IMG/VR virus record: IMGVR_UViG_3300032249_001365
Location: 1 to 21,302 of that record
DNA length: 21,302 nucleotides
Source of the DNA: a virus
Reading direction: 5' to 3' (one strand)
Made by a program: the position numbers and the translations under genes. Below the pieces are notes generated by a model. The model did not search any database and was not told the origin of the DNA. It saw only the letters and a program-made list of their open reading frames with translations. Below, piece after piece: positions 1-13,243 of the stretch (the first letter of the stretch is position 1; each line of letters starts with the position of its first letter).

Positions 1-1562
1 AGCGAGGCATACGCTTGCAAAATGTTATTTACGCTGGCCTGTGTTAGCGCTGCCCCAGAAATACTAAAAGTAGTTCCGCCATTTTTGAATGTTCCGTTGG
101 TCGGAAGCGTTACATTGGCGAGCGCTGGCAAGTTTGCCTGCACGCTGCCGCCTGCGATTGTAGCAAGCGATGGGAGAGACAGGGTTGTGAGCGCGTTCAT
201 GCCTAACATCATGATCGATGTACCGGCACTGCTGCCAATAGAACTCAGGGCGGGCAGCGACAACGTAGTAAGCGCGGCCAATGCGTTGGGGTTTAGGCTG
301 GTGCCAATAACAGTCAGCGCAGGCACCGATAACGTAGTGAGTGCGTTCAGTGTGCCGGGAGCGAAACTGCCGCCAACAGAACTCAGCACTGGCATCGACA
401 ACGTAGTGAGGTTGTTCATTATGCTGGGAGCGAAATTGCCGCCAACAGAACCCAGCGCTGGCATCGACAGCGTGGTGAGTGCGTTCATTGTGCTGGGCTG
501 GAAATTTGCGCCAACGAAACTCAGCACTGGCATCGACAACGTAGTGAGGTTGTTCATTGTGTTGGGATTGAAAGCGCCGCCAATGAAACTCAGCGCTGGC
601 ATCGACAGCGTAGTGAGCGCGGACATTGTGGCGGGGCCGAAGGTATTACGCACAGTAGCCAACGCTGGCATCGACAGTGTGGTGATCGCGGGGAGGGTAG
701 TGGGTTGAAAAGTCCCAACCTGACTCAAATTCGGGGCCGACAGCGTAGTGATCGAGTTCATGCCAATAGAAACGCCAGCGAAGCCGGGTTGGAAAATATT
801 TCCCACATAGTTCAGCGCCGGGAACGACAGTGTCGTGAGCGCGTGGGCCTGCGCGGCCATGATACTACCCCCCACATAGTTCAGCGCCGGGAACGACAGT
901 GTCGTGAGCGCGGCCATACCTGTTTGACCGAAACTCGTAATGCCGAACTGAAGATCGCCTCCCACAAAACGCACCGCTGGCATCGACAGCGACGTGAACG
1001 CGGTCGTGTTTGTGATTTGAAACGAACCGGCAACACCCTCTAGATCGTTGAAGGTGAGCGATGTCAGTCTTCCCGGTGTTCCGGTGGCGAAGTTTTCTGC
1101 ATAGCCCCAAGAGGAAATCCACTTGCCGCTGTAGCGAACGTAAGTGTCCTCAAACTGCACTGCCAGAGGCGGGACAACGAAGACCTGCGGGTGCATTCCA
1201 GCCGCTGGAAACCAATCACCAGTTTTCGTGATTGTTATGCCAGTTGCGGGCAAGGTTACGGGGCTAGCGTCCCATGCCCCGTCGCCACGAAGGAACGTAG
1301 TCGCGCTTGCCGTCCCGCTTCCAAGTCGCGCAGGGGCTACAGTGCCGCTTGTTATGTCGCTCGCCGCGTGAGTGTGTGACGCGGCCGCAGCCCCGATATC
1401 GGCCGCCGTGTTAAGGTACGGCAGCGCGTTGTAGCGCGTAACACCATCGCCAACCTTCATGCGGTTGGTGTCGGTTTCGTAGAGCAACTCGCCCGCGGCC
1501 GGTATTGGGTTAACTGCGGTTATATCAGCGGCTGTCCCGCGTTTGTTTTGAATTGTTGGCAT
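1..1562 (-). CDS. Leucine-rich-repeat phage tail fibre/adhesin, 3' end beyond window
   Basis: An open frame of 520 codons runs from ATG at 1562 off the left edge, so the C-terminus is missing. The N-terminus (MPTIQNKRGTAAD..., then KVGDG and ALPYL) matches the small N-terminal domain of phage fibres of the Mtd_N/hyaluronidase-fibre type, shared with the genes starting at 6621 and 9158. Next come typical fibre linker motifs: SHTHAASDI and TFLRGDGAW. From about residue 184 there are some twelve repeats of about 23 residues built on LTTLSMPALSSVGG, a leucine-rich-repeat pattern seen in bacterial surface proteins and some phage fibres. The final visible stretch, ALTQASVNNIL, resembles the usual end of phage LRR fibres, so little may be missing. 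It probably binds a host surface receptor as a trimeric fibre or fibre tip. The start is fixed by similarity to the paralogues; no good Shine-Dalgarno sequence precedes it. Confidence 0.85.
   Translation of the reverse strand, partial: MPTIQNKRGTAADITAVNPIPAAGELLYETDTNRMKVGDGVTRYNALPYLNTAADIGAAAASHTHAASDITSGTVAPARLGSGTASATTFLRGDGAWDASPVTLPATGITITKTGDWFPAAGMHPQVFVVPPLAVQFEDTYVRYSGKWISSWGYAENFATGTPGRLTSLTFNDLEGVAGSFQITNTTAFTSLSMPAVRFVGGDLQFGITSFGQTGMAALTTLSFPALNYVGGSIMAAQAHALTTLSFPALNYVGNIFQPGFAGVSIGMNSITTLSAPNLSQVGTFQPTTLPAITTLSMPALATVRNTFGPATMSALTTLSMPALSFIGGAFNPNTMNNLTTLSMPVLSFVGANFQPSTMNALTTLSMPALGSVGGNFAPSIMNNLTTLSMPVLSSVGGSFAPGTLNALTTLSVPALTVIGTSLNPNALAALTTLSLPALSSIGSSAGTSIMMLGMNALTTLSLPSLATIAGGSVQANLPALANVTLPTNGTFKNGGTTFSISGAALTQASVNNILQAYAS
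120..1010 (-). repeat. 69-bp tandem coding repeats (LRR units)
   Basis: About twelve diverged copies of a 69-75 bp unit encode the leucine-rich repeats of the fibre. Two segments are identical over 42 bp (802-843 and 871-912, exactly 69 bp apart). Another pair is identical over 40 bp (381-420 and 519-558, 138 bp or two units apart). Such identity at DNA level suggests recent duplication or gene conversion rather than only protein-level constraint. Confidence 0.85.
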
Positions 1563-1594: not shown

Positions 1595-1762
1595 TTACTC
1601 CGCAGCGTCTTCAATAGCCGATTCAATGTTCCTCACCCGACTAAGACCCGCCGCAACCACAGCCATCACCTCGTCGTAGGCGCCGGGCATCACTTGCCAG
1701 GCCCGCATGACGCAGTAGCCGCCGATGGCAGAGCAGATGAGTAGTTCCAAGGTGTGCCTCAC
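1595..1762 (-). CDS. Small hydrophobic protein, 55 aa
   Basis: A short frame begins with GTG at 1762, and this start overlaps the TGA of the sulfotransferase gene as GTGA, implying translational coupling. The product begins VRHTLELLICSAIGGYCVMR and ends IESAIEDAAE. Residues about 5-19 are hydrophobic and could form a short membrane-spanning segment; residues 25-40 are also apolar, followed by a charged tail. I do not recognise the family. The overlap and the absence of any other gene between 1563 and 1758 support it as real. Possible roles are a membrane anchor or partner for the enzyme encoded just upstream, but nothing in the sequence shows this. Confidence 0.6.
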   Translation of the reverse strand: MRHTLELLICSAIGGYCVMRAWQVMPGAYDEVMAVVAAGLSRVRNIESAIEDAAE

Positions 1763-2313
1763 TGCAACTCCTCCCAGAGCGAGATGTCGGCGGCGTAGAT
1801 TTTCCGCACGCTACCTTCCTCCGATGAAGTCAGCGTCGGCTTTTCTGGCACTGCGTTGATGTGCGGAAGCGAAGTCAGCCCCAGCGTTTTCGCGGCATCT
1901 TCCAGCCGCTCAAACGGAATCAACTGGCATCCGCTTCCTATGCGCGGAGACAGCGGTGCGTAGTGATACAGCCAGTCAACGCTTGTTTGCTCAATGCAAG
2001 GACGGCAGGCATCGCATCTGTCACCGATACCTAACGCCCAATATAGTTTCGATAGTGCTTTGTCTGGTGACGTATTGGATTTCGCGCACAAAGAAATAAA
2101 TCGCGCGACGGGGTTGCGAATTGAGATAACGCAATTGCTCCACTCGTCGTCAATGGTAAACGGCAATGCGCGATGAGCCGCTCCATCGGTCTGGTTGTGC
2201 CATTTGTCTGGAAAAAACTGCTGGACGGCGGCTGCGCCGAGACTGCTGGTTCCACTGCGCGGAGCAAATGCGAACGCCTTCCCATTCGGCAGGTTGTATG
2301 TCAGGGCGTACAT
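1759..2313 (-). CDS. Sulfotransferase-family protein, 184 aa
   Basis: Sulfotransferases move a sulfo group from PAPS (3'-phosphoadenylyl sulfate) to hydroxyl groups on sugars, proteins or lipids. Near the N-terminus, FAPRSGTSSL (residues 16-25) matches the 5'-phosphosulfate-binding loop (PKxGTTSL type). ISIRNPVARFISL (about 63-75) matches the 3'-phosphate-binding motif R-N-P-x-x-R-x-x-S (R66, R71, S74). Later LIPFERLED and the C-terminal KIYAADISLWEEL fit the conserved end of the Sulfotransfer_2-like fold. I chose ATG 2313 over an upstream in-frame ATG because the PAPS loop then lies at the usual distance and the overlap with the oxygenase gene is only 13 bp. It follows the 2OG oxygenase and precedes the 55-aa gene, inside a fibre block. 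The acceptor is unknown: fibre protein, glycan and host envelope are all possible. Confidence 0.75.
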   Translation of the reverse strand: MYALTYNLPNGKAFAFAPRSGTSSLGAAAVQQFFPDKWHNQTDGAAHRALPFTIDDEWSNCVISIRNPVARFISLCAKSNTSPDKALSKLYWALGIGDRCDACRPCIEQTSVDWLYHYAPLSPRIGSGCQLIPFERLEDAAKTLGLTSLPHINAVPEKPTLTSSEEGSVRKIYAADISLWEELQ

Positions 2314-2714
2314 GGCAGATACAGCCCCATCGAATAACGCCAACACTCGGTCCATACACAGTGCCAAGTAGGCGCAAGAAATTGCCGTACATTCCAACCC
2401 GGCTTGTCTTGGCACACCCGACGAACGCCGCCCTCCTCAAAGATCATTCCGCTTTCGCCTGTTTCGCTCCACGAAACGTATACCCGCCAGCCGGGATACC
2501 TGGCGTCATCGTGCCAATCAATTCCGCCGCCGGGTGGGTAAACAAAATGCCCAGCCATTCCGTTCACCATGTTCAAAGAGGTTCGGACTTCGTGCCTTTT
2601 GCTGTCCGCCGTGTCTCGGGAAAGCAATTTGTGTTTGGCAAGCGCGTCATTGATAAGAATCGCTTTGCAATTTTCGCGGCAGTACGAAGCCGATATGTCT
2701 GGTAGCGTAATCAT
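2301..2714 (-). CDS. 2-oxoglutarate/Fe(II)-dependent oxygenase, 137 aa
   Basis: Enzymes of this superfamily use Fe(II), O2 and 2-oxoglutarate to hydroxylate proteins, nucleic acids or small molecules. The facial triad is visible: H68-x-D70 in GGGIDWHDDARYPG, and the distal histidine H118 in APTWHCVWTECWRYSMGLYL. R126, eight residues later, with S128 is the expected 2-oxoglutarate carboxylate-binding R-x-S. The segment RVYVSWSETGESGMIFEE fits the central beta strands of prolyl-4-hydroxylase-like members. At 137 residues it is a minimal version of the fold. Its ATG lies 1 bp after the stop of the 1301-aa adhesin gene, and its end overlaps the sulfotransferase start by 13 bp, so the genes are probably co-transcribed. 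The substrate is not known; prolyl hydroxylation of the adhesin upstream is a reasonable guess. Confidence 0.78.
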   Translation of the reverse strand: MITLPDISASYCRENCKAILINDALAKHKLLSRDTADSKRHEVRTSLNMVNGMAGHFVYPPGGGIDWHDDARYPGWRVYVSWSETGESGMIFEEGGVRRVCQDKPGWNVRQFLAPTWHCVWTECWRYSMGLYLPCTP

Positions 2715-2715
2715 T

Positions 2716-5700
2716 TCAACTCGTCACCGTGATCGTCCCAGTCAACTGGGCAGACGAACCACCGTAGATAAACCGAAACACTGTGTAACCGGCTCGCGTA
2801 CTTGTGTCTCGCGTGTAAGTGGTTCCAAGAGTAAAGCCGGTTACGGTGGCCGAAACATTCCCGGGAACAGCGACCACCACAACGCCCGAGCCGCCCGCTG
2901 CGGCAGAGCCGCTCGAACCTCCGTTTTGCGCGCCGCCGCCGCCGCCCGTGTTTGCCGTACCAGCGAAGGTGGCTCCACCGCCGCCACCCAGCCCACCAGA
3001 GCCGGCAGGCACACCGTCGGGCGAGCCTGCACCACCACCGCCGTAGTAAATCGAACTACCTGTAATAGACGACTCTTTACCTATTCCACCATCACCCGCC
3101 CTGCTTGATGTCGCATTCTGACCTGCCCCGCCGGCACCTCCGCCGCCGCCGCCGGCCATGTATGCGTTGTCAACATAAGTATAATAGAACGCACCACCAC
3201 CACCGAATCCTTGCCCACTCACACCATCACCGGGCTGCGATTCAGTTCGGCCGTTTCCGCCGCCCGAGCCACCATCGCCACCTTTGACAATCGCGTAGGC
3301 CGCGCCGCCGCCGCCGCCGCCGATAGCAGTGAGTGAGCCGAAAACTGAATTGCTCCCAGCATTTCCTCTGGAGAACGCGCCGCTGCCGGGCAATTTCGTA
3401 CCGCCAGCACCCACAGTGACGGTATAGGTCTGCCCAGTATTTACGGATTGTGATCCAGAAAGCACACCGCCGCCTCCACCGCCACCGCCAGAACCGCCAC
3501 CACCACCGGCTACGACAAGATACTCAACAGGTATTGACGCAGAAGCGGTGGGTGTGGGAGTGGGTGTAGCTGTAGCTGTAGGTGTAGGTGTAAGTGTGGC
3601 CGTTGGCGTTGGTGTAGCCGTAGGTGTAGGTGTTGGTGTTGGTGTGGGCGTTGGTGTGGCCGTTGGCGTTGGTGTAGCCGTAGGTGTGGGTGTAGGTGTT
3701 GGTGTGGGTGTTGGTGTGGGCGTGGGTGTAGCTGTAGGCGCCGGCACGACAACCCATACTCTTGGCTGAACAAAATTTTCGCCGGTGGCTGACGCGCCGA
3801 ATTGAATTGTCTGGCCCGCGAGAACAGTTTGCATGATGCTGAATTGGTTTCCGGTGTACGTCATGCCTCCGATGTAGACGTACAGCGTGCTATTGTTTGA
3901 ACCTGAACTCGTAAATCGCAGAAACCCGGCTCTATTAATTGTAATAGTGTTGGGATTGGTGCTCGTGTTCTCTAGGGTACCTCGCGAAAGTCTGCTTCCA
4001 GTTCCGCCGTTGCCAGTCACAGAACTCAAGCCGTTTTTCCCCCAGCCAGTGGTGGAGGGGGAAAGAACCTTCGGCGCAACGGCACACACGCCAAGCGTAT
4101 TGCACGCAATTACTCCCTCAACGATGCCAAAATTGCTAGAGGAGTCGTTGAAGGTGCCGTCCCCTGCCACGCCAGCAAAATATTCGTCCCCCGGGGAAAG
4201 TCCCAAGTTCAATGCCGGATCTACTTCTACGAAAGCATTTACAGAACTATCGTTAAACGTAGCATTGCCATTAACGCGCCCGTGATTTTCGGAACTATCG
4301 TTAAAGGTCGCGTTGCCCTCCACGCCGCCAACCCATTCCGAGTAATCCCAGTAACCGATTGCTTCGTTCTTTGAACTATCGTTGAAGATCGCGTTGCCGT
4401 TATAAACTACTCCGCCTAACGAGGTTGTGTCGTTGAATGTGACGTTGCCGCGTAAGTTGTAAAATTCTCCGGCGCCAAATAACTGGGTGTTTGGGGAATA
4501 AATGAAAACAATGCCCGGATCAACAAAATCCGTAAGGCTAATTGACGCGCTGGCCTGCAGATCCGCACCGGCATCATTCCCGTCACCAGCGCTGTCTGTA
4601 GCGATGATTGAAGTAGCGTTTACAATGACATCGAACAAAAGCACATTGCTCAGAGTTACGACGCCAGCAACTATAATTCCAGGGTCGTAGTTTTCACTTT
4701 CATAGAAATTGGAAAGCGTTACTCCAGAGGCAGTCAGATTACGACAATAGAAAATTGGCCCGCCAGCGTTATTGGCGTCCTCGAGAAACACTACAGCGTT
4801 AAGGCTGGTGGGCAAGGCAGCGGCGGCGATCGTCCCGGCGGCATCCTGAAACCAGTTGTCCAGATTGCTCGCATGACTGTCTGCGGCGGCGGTGAAATAC
4901 AGCGTTGGCGGCATCACGACGCCGCAATCAATGACAAGCGCGTCATTAATTTTTGGCGTTGTCACGGCCCCGTTTGCGAGGTCGGCGGCAACAACCGCCC
5001 CGGCCTTGATCGCCCATGTTGCGCCACCGCCGGAAACGGAGATGTCGCCCTTGTCGCCATCGGTCAAACCGACCGCAGGCGTAGTGGCAACCCACGCTGT
5101 CCCGCTCCACTGCGGCACCTGTCCTGTAACTGCACTAGACTGTGTCAGTTCTGAGAGCGGATGCGTATGAACTGCGGCGGCGTAACTGCCCGCTATTTGC
5201 TTACCGTCGAGCGCGGTTTGTAATCCAGAGACGTTGGCAATCGTGTGCGTGTGTGATGACGCGGCCTTACCGTCGAGAGCGGTTTGAGTGGCCGTTGAAA
5301 TAGGCTTTGAGGCATCGCTGGTGTTGTCAACATTACCTAAACCAACATTATTTTTATCAAGAGTGACAGCGCCAGTTTTGCCGGCCACACTTTGTACCGG
5401 CGCAGCAGCACTTGCTCTAGCGTCAGTATAGTACTTGTTAACGCTTCCTTCTGGCACACTGTCTGTGCTGCCGGGCGAGGCGCTGATCTCTACATATGCG
5501 CTGCCGCTCCAACGGTATGTTTTATTGCTATCCAGCGTAACGTAAATTTTACCTGTTTCGCCAGTCGCGGGGAGCGCGGCTAAGTTGGCCGCCTCTACTA
5601 CATCGTCTACATAACTTGGAAGTTGGATTGCTGGAACTGTGCCGTTTACAAGAGTAGCGTAGCTGCCGCTGCCCTGCTTACCGGCAAGAAAAGTATCAAC

Positions 5701-6621
5701 TTCGCTTTCTGTATAATAGCGATCATCGTGGGTGTGACTTGAATTTGCTTTGCCATCTAAAGCTGTCTGCAGGCCAGAAATCGTGGACACAGCTTGCGTG
5801 CCGGTGTGATTTGCCCGCGACAGCAAAGTAGCATCAGAAGAATTTGCCGTCGCGCCAGTAGCAATTCCATCTAATTTCGTCTTTGCCGCGCTACTAGACC
5901 ACCAAGCCGCTACGGCCTGAAAGATTCTCTGTGGCGTGAAAGCGAATCGGCTTGTTGATGTGCCGGCTTCCGCGTCAGCTTGGCTAACAGTGCCGGCAAT
6001 CCATTCGCGTGAGTCGGCAAGGCGCGGGTCATTGCCTTGGCAGACGTTACCTGCCTGCGCGCCAAACTCACCACGACCAACAAAACTGCCAACCGCGTTA
6101 CTAAACACGACAGGTCCGCCAACGGAGGCGGGGGCAATTACAACGTTAATTCCACCAAACGGGTCAATGTTTCCGTGACTGTGCAGGCTCGCGGCTTTAC
6201 CGTCGAGAGCGGTTTGAGTGGCCGTTGAAATAGGCTTTGAGGCGTCGCTGGTGTTGTCGACGTTTCCAAGGCCCACCATGCTCTTGGTAATACCGCTAAC
6301 CGTTCCTGTAAATGTTGGGCTGGCAATTGGCGCTTTTAAATCTAATGCCGCCTGCAATCCGGTAACACTTGAAATACTGTGAATGTGCCCGATATCAGCT
6401 TTATTATTTAGCGCATCCTGCAAACCGACAATATTGGCAATGCTAACAGTTAGCGTAGATTGTGGATTTGCGTAAGGCAAACTAACCCAAGACCGAATGC
6501 CGTCGCCAATTTTGAATAGACCCGTGTCTTGCTCAAAAATAATTTCGCCAATGAGCGGCAGCGGATTAAGGGACAGCAAAGCAGCCGCGGTGCCACGTTT
6601 TAATTGAATGGTTGGTGGCAT
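2716..6621 (-). CDS. Large mosaic tail fibre/adhesin with Thr-Pro stalk and glycine-rich tip, 1301 aa
   Basis: Probable receptor-binding fibre. Residues 1-58 form the Mtd_N-like fibre domain ([23 protein letters not shown]). Residues about 60-500 hold tail-fibre collar repeats: GLQ-ALD-KA units with HTH or HSH, and two copies of [17 protein letters not shown] about 310 residues apart. Residues about 500-720 look like a beta-rich shaft. Residues about 725-831 carry repeats of NATFNDSS separated by short variable loops, likely a beta-solenoid. Residues about 961-1025 are a Thr-Pro/Ala tract. From about 1030 a glycine-rich domain begins with [13 protein letters not shown], of the polyglycine type used by some phage adhesin tips. 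A longer reading from TTG 6633 is open, but ATG 6621 gives the paralogue-like N-terminus. No clear Shine-Dalgarno is seen. Confidence 0.88.
3547..3738 (-). repeat. Hexanucleotide tract encoding the Thr-Pro stalk
   Basis: About 190 bp of nearly uninterrupted GGTGTN-type hexamers on the plus strand (ACACCN-like on the coding strand) encode alternating Thr-Pro with some Ala replacements. The third base varies, so it is an imperfect microsatellite. Gain or loss of one unit would change the protein by two residues without a frameshift. The long frames that appear here on both strands in other registers are by-products of this composition. Confidence 0.9.
5268..5313 (-). repeat. 46-bp direct repeat, copy B
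   Basis: Identical to 6198-6243 over 46 bp, and the match continues after one mismatch. It encodes part of the second [26 protein letters not shown] module of the 1301-aa adhesin. The copies are 930 bp apart, a multiple of three. Confidence 0.85.
6198..6243 (-). repeat. 46-bp direct repeat, copy A
   Basis: Partner of 5268-5313, encoding the first [26 protein letters not shown] module. Recombination between the two copies would remove 310 residues of the adhesin collar in frame. Confidence 0.85.
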
Positions 6622-6636
6622 TTTTACATACAAAAA

Positions 6637-12202: not shown

Positions 12203-13243
12203 TCACGTGTCAAAAATATTGTTCCAACTCATTTCAAACGCATTCCTGCGCGAAGCTAAGTTGTAGTTCGTTTTTTGATTCATTTTTTGTATGTACCTGG
12301 GTTCCGTAATCAGCTCCTGCAAAAGATACACAAATTGCTCATAATCGGGTAGAGCGTGAACGACCCCGTTTTCGTCGTAGTCTAACTTTGTCTGCAGAAG
12401 CACAGCATTATTGTCTGGAAATAGAAAATCTGTTTGCGGCGGGACGGCTGTAGTTAGCACGGGCGTCCCCATAGTTATTGCCGTAAGCGCGCAAATACCG
12501 TAATTGTCACATTCAGCCGGAATTAGAGCTAAATCATTGGCGGCATAAAGTTGCGGGCGCTTATCGACTGGGACGCCGCGAACTACTTGTAACCGGTCGG
12601 GATACGCTTTTGACAAAGTTTTAAAGCACTTTGCTATAGCGGGGGAAAACCGGCTTGGGGAGATAGCTACCGTTAACGTTAGTTCTTCCATGTGCGTGAT
12701 AATAAAACGCAAAGCATCAATAAACAGGCCGCCGGTGCACCTAGCATTACGGTCAAACCACGGCAGCAGTACTTTTATGTTACGTGGATTTACGCCAGCG
12801 GTTTTTTTAGTTATCGGCAGCCCGGTGTCGAATGGAATCAATTCAGCTGTTTTGACGCGATATATGTCAGTAAACAGTGTTTGGCATTCCGCGCTCATTG
12901 CGACAACGTGATCCGCAGCGCGCAGTGTGCGGCGAAAAGGCTGCCGCAAATCCTGCCACATAGGCGCAATGACTGTGCGAATACCGTTTCTTTTAGCAAA
13001 CGTAATTTGCTCAATTTTTGGCACCGTCGTCCAGACAATTACGCTGTGGCGTTTGGCCCAATCTGTAAATTTGACAATGTTTTTTGTCAGAATCAGATTG
13101 TCGTACGGAAGCCCGAGTTTTCCAGGCTGCTTGTCTGAGTATATATCAAATTCAAGCCCGTTTTTACGCAATAGCTGAGCCAGCCGCACGACGAGATAAG
13201 CCTCGTCGCAATGTGCGTAATGCGTGTAAAACCCGATGCGCAT
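12203..13243 (-). CDS. GT-B fold glycosyltransferase, 346 aa
   Basis: The protein transfers a sugar from a nucleotide-sugar donor. Its layout is two Rossmann-like halves: an N-terminal acceptor domain (MRIGFYTHYAHCDEAYLVVR, LIPFDTGLP near 135-143) and a C-terminal donor domain starting near NIKVLLPWFDRNARCTGG. Residues 235-265 (AANDLALIPAECDNYGI followed by TMGTPVLTT) match the donor-binding signature of GT4-like enzymes. At the usual EX7E positions I read D246 and T254, so the second Glu is missing. The length is normal. The gene starts 19 bp after the portal stop. Possible acceptors are virion proteins, modified DNA bases or host surface glycans; the window gives no direct clue. Confidence 0.78.
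   Translation of the reverse strand: MRIGFYTHYAHCDEAYLVVRLAQLLRKNGLEFDIYSDKQPGKLGLPYDNLILTKNIVKFTDWAKRHSVIVWTTVPKIEQITFAKRNGIRTVIAPMWQDLRQPFRRTLRAADHVVAMSAECQTLFTDIYRVKTAELIPFDTGLPITKKTAGVNPRNIKVLLPWFDRNARCTGGLFIDALRFIITHMEELTLTVAISPSRFSPAIAKCFKTLSKAYPDRLQVVRGVPVDKRPQLYAANDLALIPAECDNYGICALTAITMGTPVLTTAVPPQTDFLFPDNNAVLLQTKLDYDENGVVHALPDYEQFVYLLQELITEPRYIQKMNQKTNYNLASRRNAFEMSWNNIFDT

Follow-up and report, generated by a model that had tools for sequence, protein, structure and literature searches.

Predicted sulfotransferase and oxygenase-like genes as probable enzyme components of exchangeable adhesin-tip cassettes in phages

Introduction

Some viruses encode a protein hydroxylase of their own whose presumed targets are viral structural proteins; mimivirus, with its collagen modification, is one. 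PBCV-1, with a prolyl 4-hydroxylase, is another (cited in PMC9301287). Among phages, sulfotransferases (STs) have been reported as auxiliary metabolic genes in OM43 phages (PMC10580990) and in glacier-ice viruses (PMC8290583), and the former states that their role in phages is unclear; marine phages commonly carry 2OG oxygenases (PMC12774648). A full-text search, which covered part of the literature, found no paper joining a phage ST, an oxygenase and a tail fibre.

Here we analyze a phage fragment of 21,302 bases, the complete IMG/VR record IMGVR_UViG_3300032249_001365 (herein the window), in which an oxygenase-like gene and an ST gene directly follow a tail-fibre (adhesin) gene. Like PBCV-1 and mimivirus, this phage encodes its own protein hydroxylase-like enzyme; the two systems differ from it in belonging to eukaryotic viruses, in their collagen-like substrates, and in having neither an ST nor an exchange linked to an adhesin tip. 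The OM43-phage STs are Pfam-recognised (PF13469; PMC10580990), whereas the ST family described here lies outside Pfam; and while the OM43-phage and glacier-ice STs are not known to be linked to adhesin tips, the present family is almost strictly adhesin-linked. We propose that the oxygenase-like gene and the ST probably supply the enzymes of an exchangeable adhesin-tip cassette and that these modify the adhesin.

Results

Locus layout

The fibre gene, the oxygenase-like gene, the ST, a 55-aa ORF and a second fibre gene are all on the minus strand (Table 1). The fibre ORF (2716-6633) is open from a TTG at 6633, with a probable ATG at 6621; it matches the Pfam families Mtd_N (3.8e-6), PTR (7e-20) and Gly_rich_2 (1.4e-21) and also tail PHROGs. 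An initial annotation, made from the sequence alone, had described a tightly chained set of genes between two fibre genes, and the coordinates bear this out: the oxygenase gene starts 1 bp past the fibre stop, the ST overlaps the oxygenase gene by 13 bp, the 55-aa ORF overlaps the ST by 4 bp (GTGA), and the second fibre gene, with its Mtd_N domain, comes after the 55-aa ORF and runs off the contig. The Thr-Pro stretch upstream, put at about 65 residues, measures 72 aa with 23 TP.

Searches of Pfam, PHROGs and NCBIfam gave no convincing match for the oxygenase-like protein, the ST or the 55-aa ORF. The last is present as annotated, but its description as hydrophobic and membrane-like holds only weakly (best 19-residue Kyte-Doolittle mean of 1.35). 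It has no counterpart in the related cassettes described below, its only match being phrog_19893 at E 0.022, and it probably does not belong to the cassette.

The second fibre carries ~12 repeats of a TTLS-P-L unit and a weak Receptor L domain match, and may be β-solenoid or LRR-like. Elsewhere in the window (12203-13243), a GT4-type glycosyltransferase-like gene adjoins a portal-like gene.

Table 1. Coordinates of the adhesin, the associated genes and their motifs in the window
Feature	Position	Strand	Description
Adhesin/tail-fibre gene	2716..6621	-	Mtd_N head, phage tail repeats, Thr-Pro linker, Gly-rich C-terminal tip
Thr-Pro linker	3529..3744	-	ORF residues 964-1035; 72 aa, 32 T, 26 P, 23 TP
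Gly-rich tip domain (PF21722)	2869..3534	-	Residues 1034-1255; Gly_rich_2 E=1.4e-21; tip association in relatives
2OG/Fe(II)-oxygenase-like DSBH protein (predicted)	2301..2714	-	137 aa; family alignment, AF2 model, fold matches
Oxygenase residue H68	2511-2513	-	
Oxygenase residue D70	2505-2507	-	
Oxygenase residue H118	2361-2363	-	
Oxygenase residue R126	2337-2339	-	
ST (predicted)	1759..2313	-	184 aa; AF2 model, Foldseek and VIA-align matches
ST 5'-phosphosulfate loop	2242-2262	-	
ST 3'-phosphate motif	2092-2118	-	
55-aa ORF	1595..1762	-	Weakly hydrophobic N terminus
Second fibre gene	3..1562	-	Mtd_N head, repeated TTLS-P-L units; cut by contig end

Fold and motifs of the sulfotransferase

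The annotation as an ST with both PAPS-binding motifs is supported by modelling and alignment. The AF2 model of the window protein has a pLDDT of 87 and a pTM of 0.85; its top 10 Foldseek matches in the PDB are all STs, although at modest E-values (best 0.05), and so are its top 33 PDB matches in VIA-align, the first unrelated structure appearing at Z 4.0. The best of these is heparan sulfate (HS) 2-O-sulfotransferase (2-OST; Z 8.0 over 143 residues, rmsd 4.0), and 6-OST and NDST score Z 7.2 and Z 6.7-7.1, respectively. The motifs read PRSGTSS at residue 18 and RNPVARFIS at residue 66. Across 11 aligned STs, the relatives having come via the oxygenase scan, R19, S24, R66, P68, R71, F72 and S74 are invariant and make up the two PAPS-site motifs. 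The predicted structure shows a sulfotransferase fold, and ST activity, as predicted from it, is very likely.

The phage ST shares its fold across almost the whole chain with the HS 2-O, 6-O, N and 3-O glycan STs (PF03567-like and relatives), and has in common with them the 5' loop, the RNPxxRFxS motif and a C-terminal YxxDIxLW helix. Unlike these enzymes, the phage STs are much smaller (158-200 aa), soluble and phage-borne, have 6-18% identity to them and lie outside Pfam. PF03567 (Sulfotransfer_2) gave no match for the window ST and reached at best E 0.027, in two of eight relatives. Searches of Pfam, PHROGs, NCBIfam and PDB sequences with either enzyme or its family alignment returned no credible family, and no bacterial relatives of the ST were found in the bacterial genome contigs searched. 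A Microbacterium phage "adenylyltransferase" was rejected as a relative; the matches fall on an AAA_28-domain protein and were taken as chance P-loop similarity. APS kinase was found in none of 15 phage records by a search that was positive in 11 of 14 control genomes; PAPS would therefore have to come from the host, a point against the reading that we prefer.

Fold and family of the oxygenase-like protein

The core of the AF2 model (residues 50-134, pLDDT 92-98) is a double-stranded β-helix (DSBH), so that structure prediction, which the initial annotation had suggested for both enzymes, gave a confident fold for each. VIA-align places GGCX first (Z 10.0), with PiuC (Z 9.0, rmsd 2.4, 91 residues) and AlkB (Z 8.6) below it, and Foldseek matches a P. 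putida prolyl hydroxylase (P4H) at E 1.2e-3; the fold matches mix 2OG oxygenases with plain, non-oxygenase cupins. The phage family comprises at least 522 tblastn-confirmed stretches in IMG/VR and is captured by none of the Pfam, PHROGs or PDB sequence profiles. No sequence relation to YbiX, Pfam or PDB sequences is detectable, and a profile comparison with E. coli YbiX showed no link. Like the Fe(II)/2OG oxygenases, among them prolyl hydroxylases and the PKHD-type PiuC/YbiX, the family has the DSBH fold and carries HxD/N...H...R in the order of the superfamily; it differs in its length (~130-230 aa) and in having Asn at the third position.

In the window protein the motif is W67-H68-D-D70, followed by H118 and R126, so the annotated HxD...H...R set is present. 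Y59, W67, H68, H118 and R126 are invariant in all 41 aligned family members (alignment A6), but D70 did not hold up as a family feature. Of the 95 ORFs that have a WHxx motif, 94 carry Asn at position 70 and the window protein alone carries Asp; the textbook HxD of the window is therefore an exception within its own family. Asn at this usual metal position counts against the reading that we prefer, as do the non-oxygenase cupins among the fold matches and the first place of GGCX. Lack of the carboxylate is compatible with activity because human AspH, to which most family members are similar in this respect, works with two His and a water replacing the carboxylate (PMC13168262); AspH-type structures are absent among the VIA-align matches listed, which is not evidence against a relation. 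We call the 137-aa protein oxygenase-like on the basis of its predicted fold and claim no substrate class for it. In marine phages the family often adjoins glycosyltransferase-like genes.

Recurrence of the enzyme pair behind adhesins

The order adhesin, oxygenase, ST recurs in 10 other phages (L002, L008, L011, L012, L018, L025, L028, L090, L091 and L271), as direct neighbours whose ends usually overlap. Both enzymes are 27-42% identical to those of the window where computed, and the pairs measurable among close relatives show purifying selection (dN/dS 0.07-0.44). Chance does not account for the arrangement, since other phages again have the two enzymes adjacent to each other and following an adhesin. 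The oxygenase is also found without an ST behind fibres (L013-L016, L032, L033, L035), and in G003 and G004 there are two STs per genome, each following a different adhesin, the second ST being shorter and without an oxygenase. A scan with these two short STs yielded 55 loci; removal of near-duplicates by a rough ungapped criterion left 39 distinct STs, among them those of the first ten pairs, with the window counted as one pair. All but one of the 39 lie in an adhesin unit, that is, directly behind an adhesin, behind the adhesin's oxygenase, or as the tandem neighbour of an ST so placed, and mostly without an oxygenase; the sole exception, L262, has a 311-bp gap.

Variants of the layout occur. 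In two phages (L013:3875-7470 and L016:3876-7469) the fibre tip and the oxygenase are tandemly duplicated as a unit, with the second tip copy on a short gene; the copies are identical in L013. Three ST-like genes lie in tandem behind one adhesin at L224:5977-7521; the loop of the third, GLTRTGTTSL, is that of another sulfotransferase type. At L012:6902-9854, L008:4698-8220 and L091:8639-12200 the ST is followed by a conserved 325-aa protein, glycoside phosphorylase- or propeller-like in appearance, and by a large protein that is methyltransferase-like in parts (PF13578 in L008), possibly a longer glycan-building operon. An alginate-lyase domain gene (PF05426, 9e-52; L090:1353-2465, minus strand) is inverted between two adhesins in the cassette region.

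Alternatively, the enzymes could target molecules on the host surface (LPS, capsule or other glycans), for instance in superinfection block or receptor reshaping. Pelagimyophage glycosyltransferases near fibres have been read in this way (PMC7029224), glycan STs are the best structural matches of the ST, and carbohydrate- or methyltransferase-like genes come after several cassettes. Nearly every ST is nonetheless the direct 3' neighbour of an adhesin or of the adhesin's oxygenase, genomes with two STs place each behind a different adhesin, and the enzymes swap together with the tip (see below); inspection of the sequences, moreover, made no membrane anchor or export signal evident. We regard this explanation as unlikely. 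Because the pair is tied to the adhesin gene, modification of the phage's own adhesin, which the initial annotation had put forward and which the recurring enzyme unit supports, is favoured over modification of host molecules.

Tip and linker composition of the adhesins

To compare composition, we set 34 ST-adjacent adhesins against 160 control ORFs, each ≥250 aa and taken from elsewhere in the short-ST loci, counting a tail as Gly-rich at ≥20% Gly in the last 150 residues. A Gly-rich tip is found in 20 of the 34 adhesins and 13 of the 160 controls (Fisher P 3e-10), and a T/S/P-rich linker in 11 of the 34 and 20 of the 160 (P=0.008), the P values being indicative only because the loci are related. 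Two ST-adjacent Gly tips that the script overlooked (L229, L253) probably sit among the controls, which makes the comparison conservative. Many tips have in common a recognisable domain ending GAVVLYFT. The common feature of ST-adjacent adhesins is the Gly-rich C-terminal tip, not Thr-Pro; against our reading, ~40% of these adhesins are without a Gly-rich tip at the threshold used.

Thr-Pro had been annotated as the natural target. On that explanation the oxygenase would be a prolyl hydroxylase acting on the linker, and the ST would place sulfate on the hydroxyprolines so formed, on the threonines, or on sugars attached to them. The many TP pairs of the window fibre, the P. putida enzyme among the oxygenase fold matches and the location of one second ST behind a TTTTTDAP-repeat protein would fit, and the survey of related phages that had been proposed does find the linker enriched, but in two thirds of the ST-adjacent adhesins it is lacking and thus not a shared feature. 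Cassettes also occur behind FN3-linked or linker-free adhesins (L002, L011, L025), and in three large genomes (G003, G004, G008) only 14 ORFs have strong T/S/P linkers, most of them without a cassette.

A natural exchange of tip and enzymes

The DNA of L028 and L234 is 97% identical in the fibre start and the first part of the Thr-Pro linker; downstream of the tip/enzyme region, 2.55 kb match at 91% identity. Between these conserved flanks, L028 has one Gly-rich tip, an oxygenase and a long ST, and L234 has another Gly-rich tip and a short ST, without an oxygenase. The tip-oxygenase-ST block of L028 is ~80% identical to L018 and L025 over ~2.07 kb; this homology begins just past the Thr-Pro linker, which L025 lacks altogether. 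The enzymes thus follow the tip, as L028 and L234 differ in tip and enzymes yet share the linker start and the downstream region. No other observation argues as strongly that the tip is the partner and that the Thr-Pro linker is not the cognate substrate, and we consider action on the linker quite improbable. The exchange likewise makes host molecules less likely to be the main target.

A co-exchanged protein could also be an assembly factor, with which the swap is compatible. Fibre chaperones are typically encoded right behind the tip and co-exchanged with it. That the two proteins are tip-specific, chaperone-like assembly factors with enzyme folds but no needed catalysis would suit this position and exchange, as well as an oxygenase family without the usual carboxylate; it is very unlikely, given that R19, S24, R66, R71 and S74 of the PAPS site are kept across divergent STs and the His/His/Arg of the oxygenase throughout its alignment, both as expected for catalysis, and that AspH is active with its carboxylate replaced (PMC13168262). 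A Skp1-type hydroxyproline-GlcNAc pathway (P4H plus GT60/PF11397) was rejected, only 1 of 80 PF11397 loci having an oxygenase within flanks of ≤7 kb. A PF11397 glycosyltransferase occurs in 5 of 46 oxygenase records; at L035:4555-7602 a fibre, an oxygenase and PF11397 (GT60, the hydroxyproline GlcNAc-transferase family) stand in a row, a Skp1-like set that is not general.

Discussion

We favour an exchangeable cassette consisting of a C-terminal receptor-binding fibre tip, an optional hydroxylase-like enzyme and a PAPS-dependent ST. Because the genes overlap or abut, the fibre and the enzymes are probably co-produced. The ST would move sulfate from host PAPS to the cognate adhesin, most likely to the Gly-rich tip or a group on the tip; the oxygenase, where present, would hydroxylate the same adhesin, possibly creating the acceptor hydroxyl. 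The receptor-binding surface would thereby change in charge or in binding. It is from the folds, the gene order, the association with the tip and the block exchange that we infer the activity of both enzymes, the adhesin as their substrate, the modified residue, the order of the steps and the benefit. Adhesin tips diverge faster than the cassette enzymes, which may mean loose specificity and counts against the cassette.

More tentatively, the tips may be co-inherited with dedicated enzymes that sulfate them, some hydroxylating them first, as a heritable, swappable part of tropism, with an oxygenase family that uses His-x-Asn for His-x-Asp; this possibility we would put at somewhat short of even. 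We know of no sulfated phage virion protein, and such a tip would be the first.

For tailed phages, host range is usually deduced from nothing but the sequence of the adhesin. Should tips bear sulfate or hydroxyl groups added by enzymes, prediction from sequence only would miss part of the specificity, and so would recombinant adhesins made without their partner genes. The cassette would also offer a concrete role for phage STs, which were listed earlier as metabolic genes and whose function is called unclear in PMC10580990.
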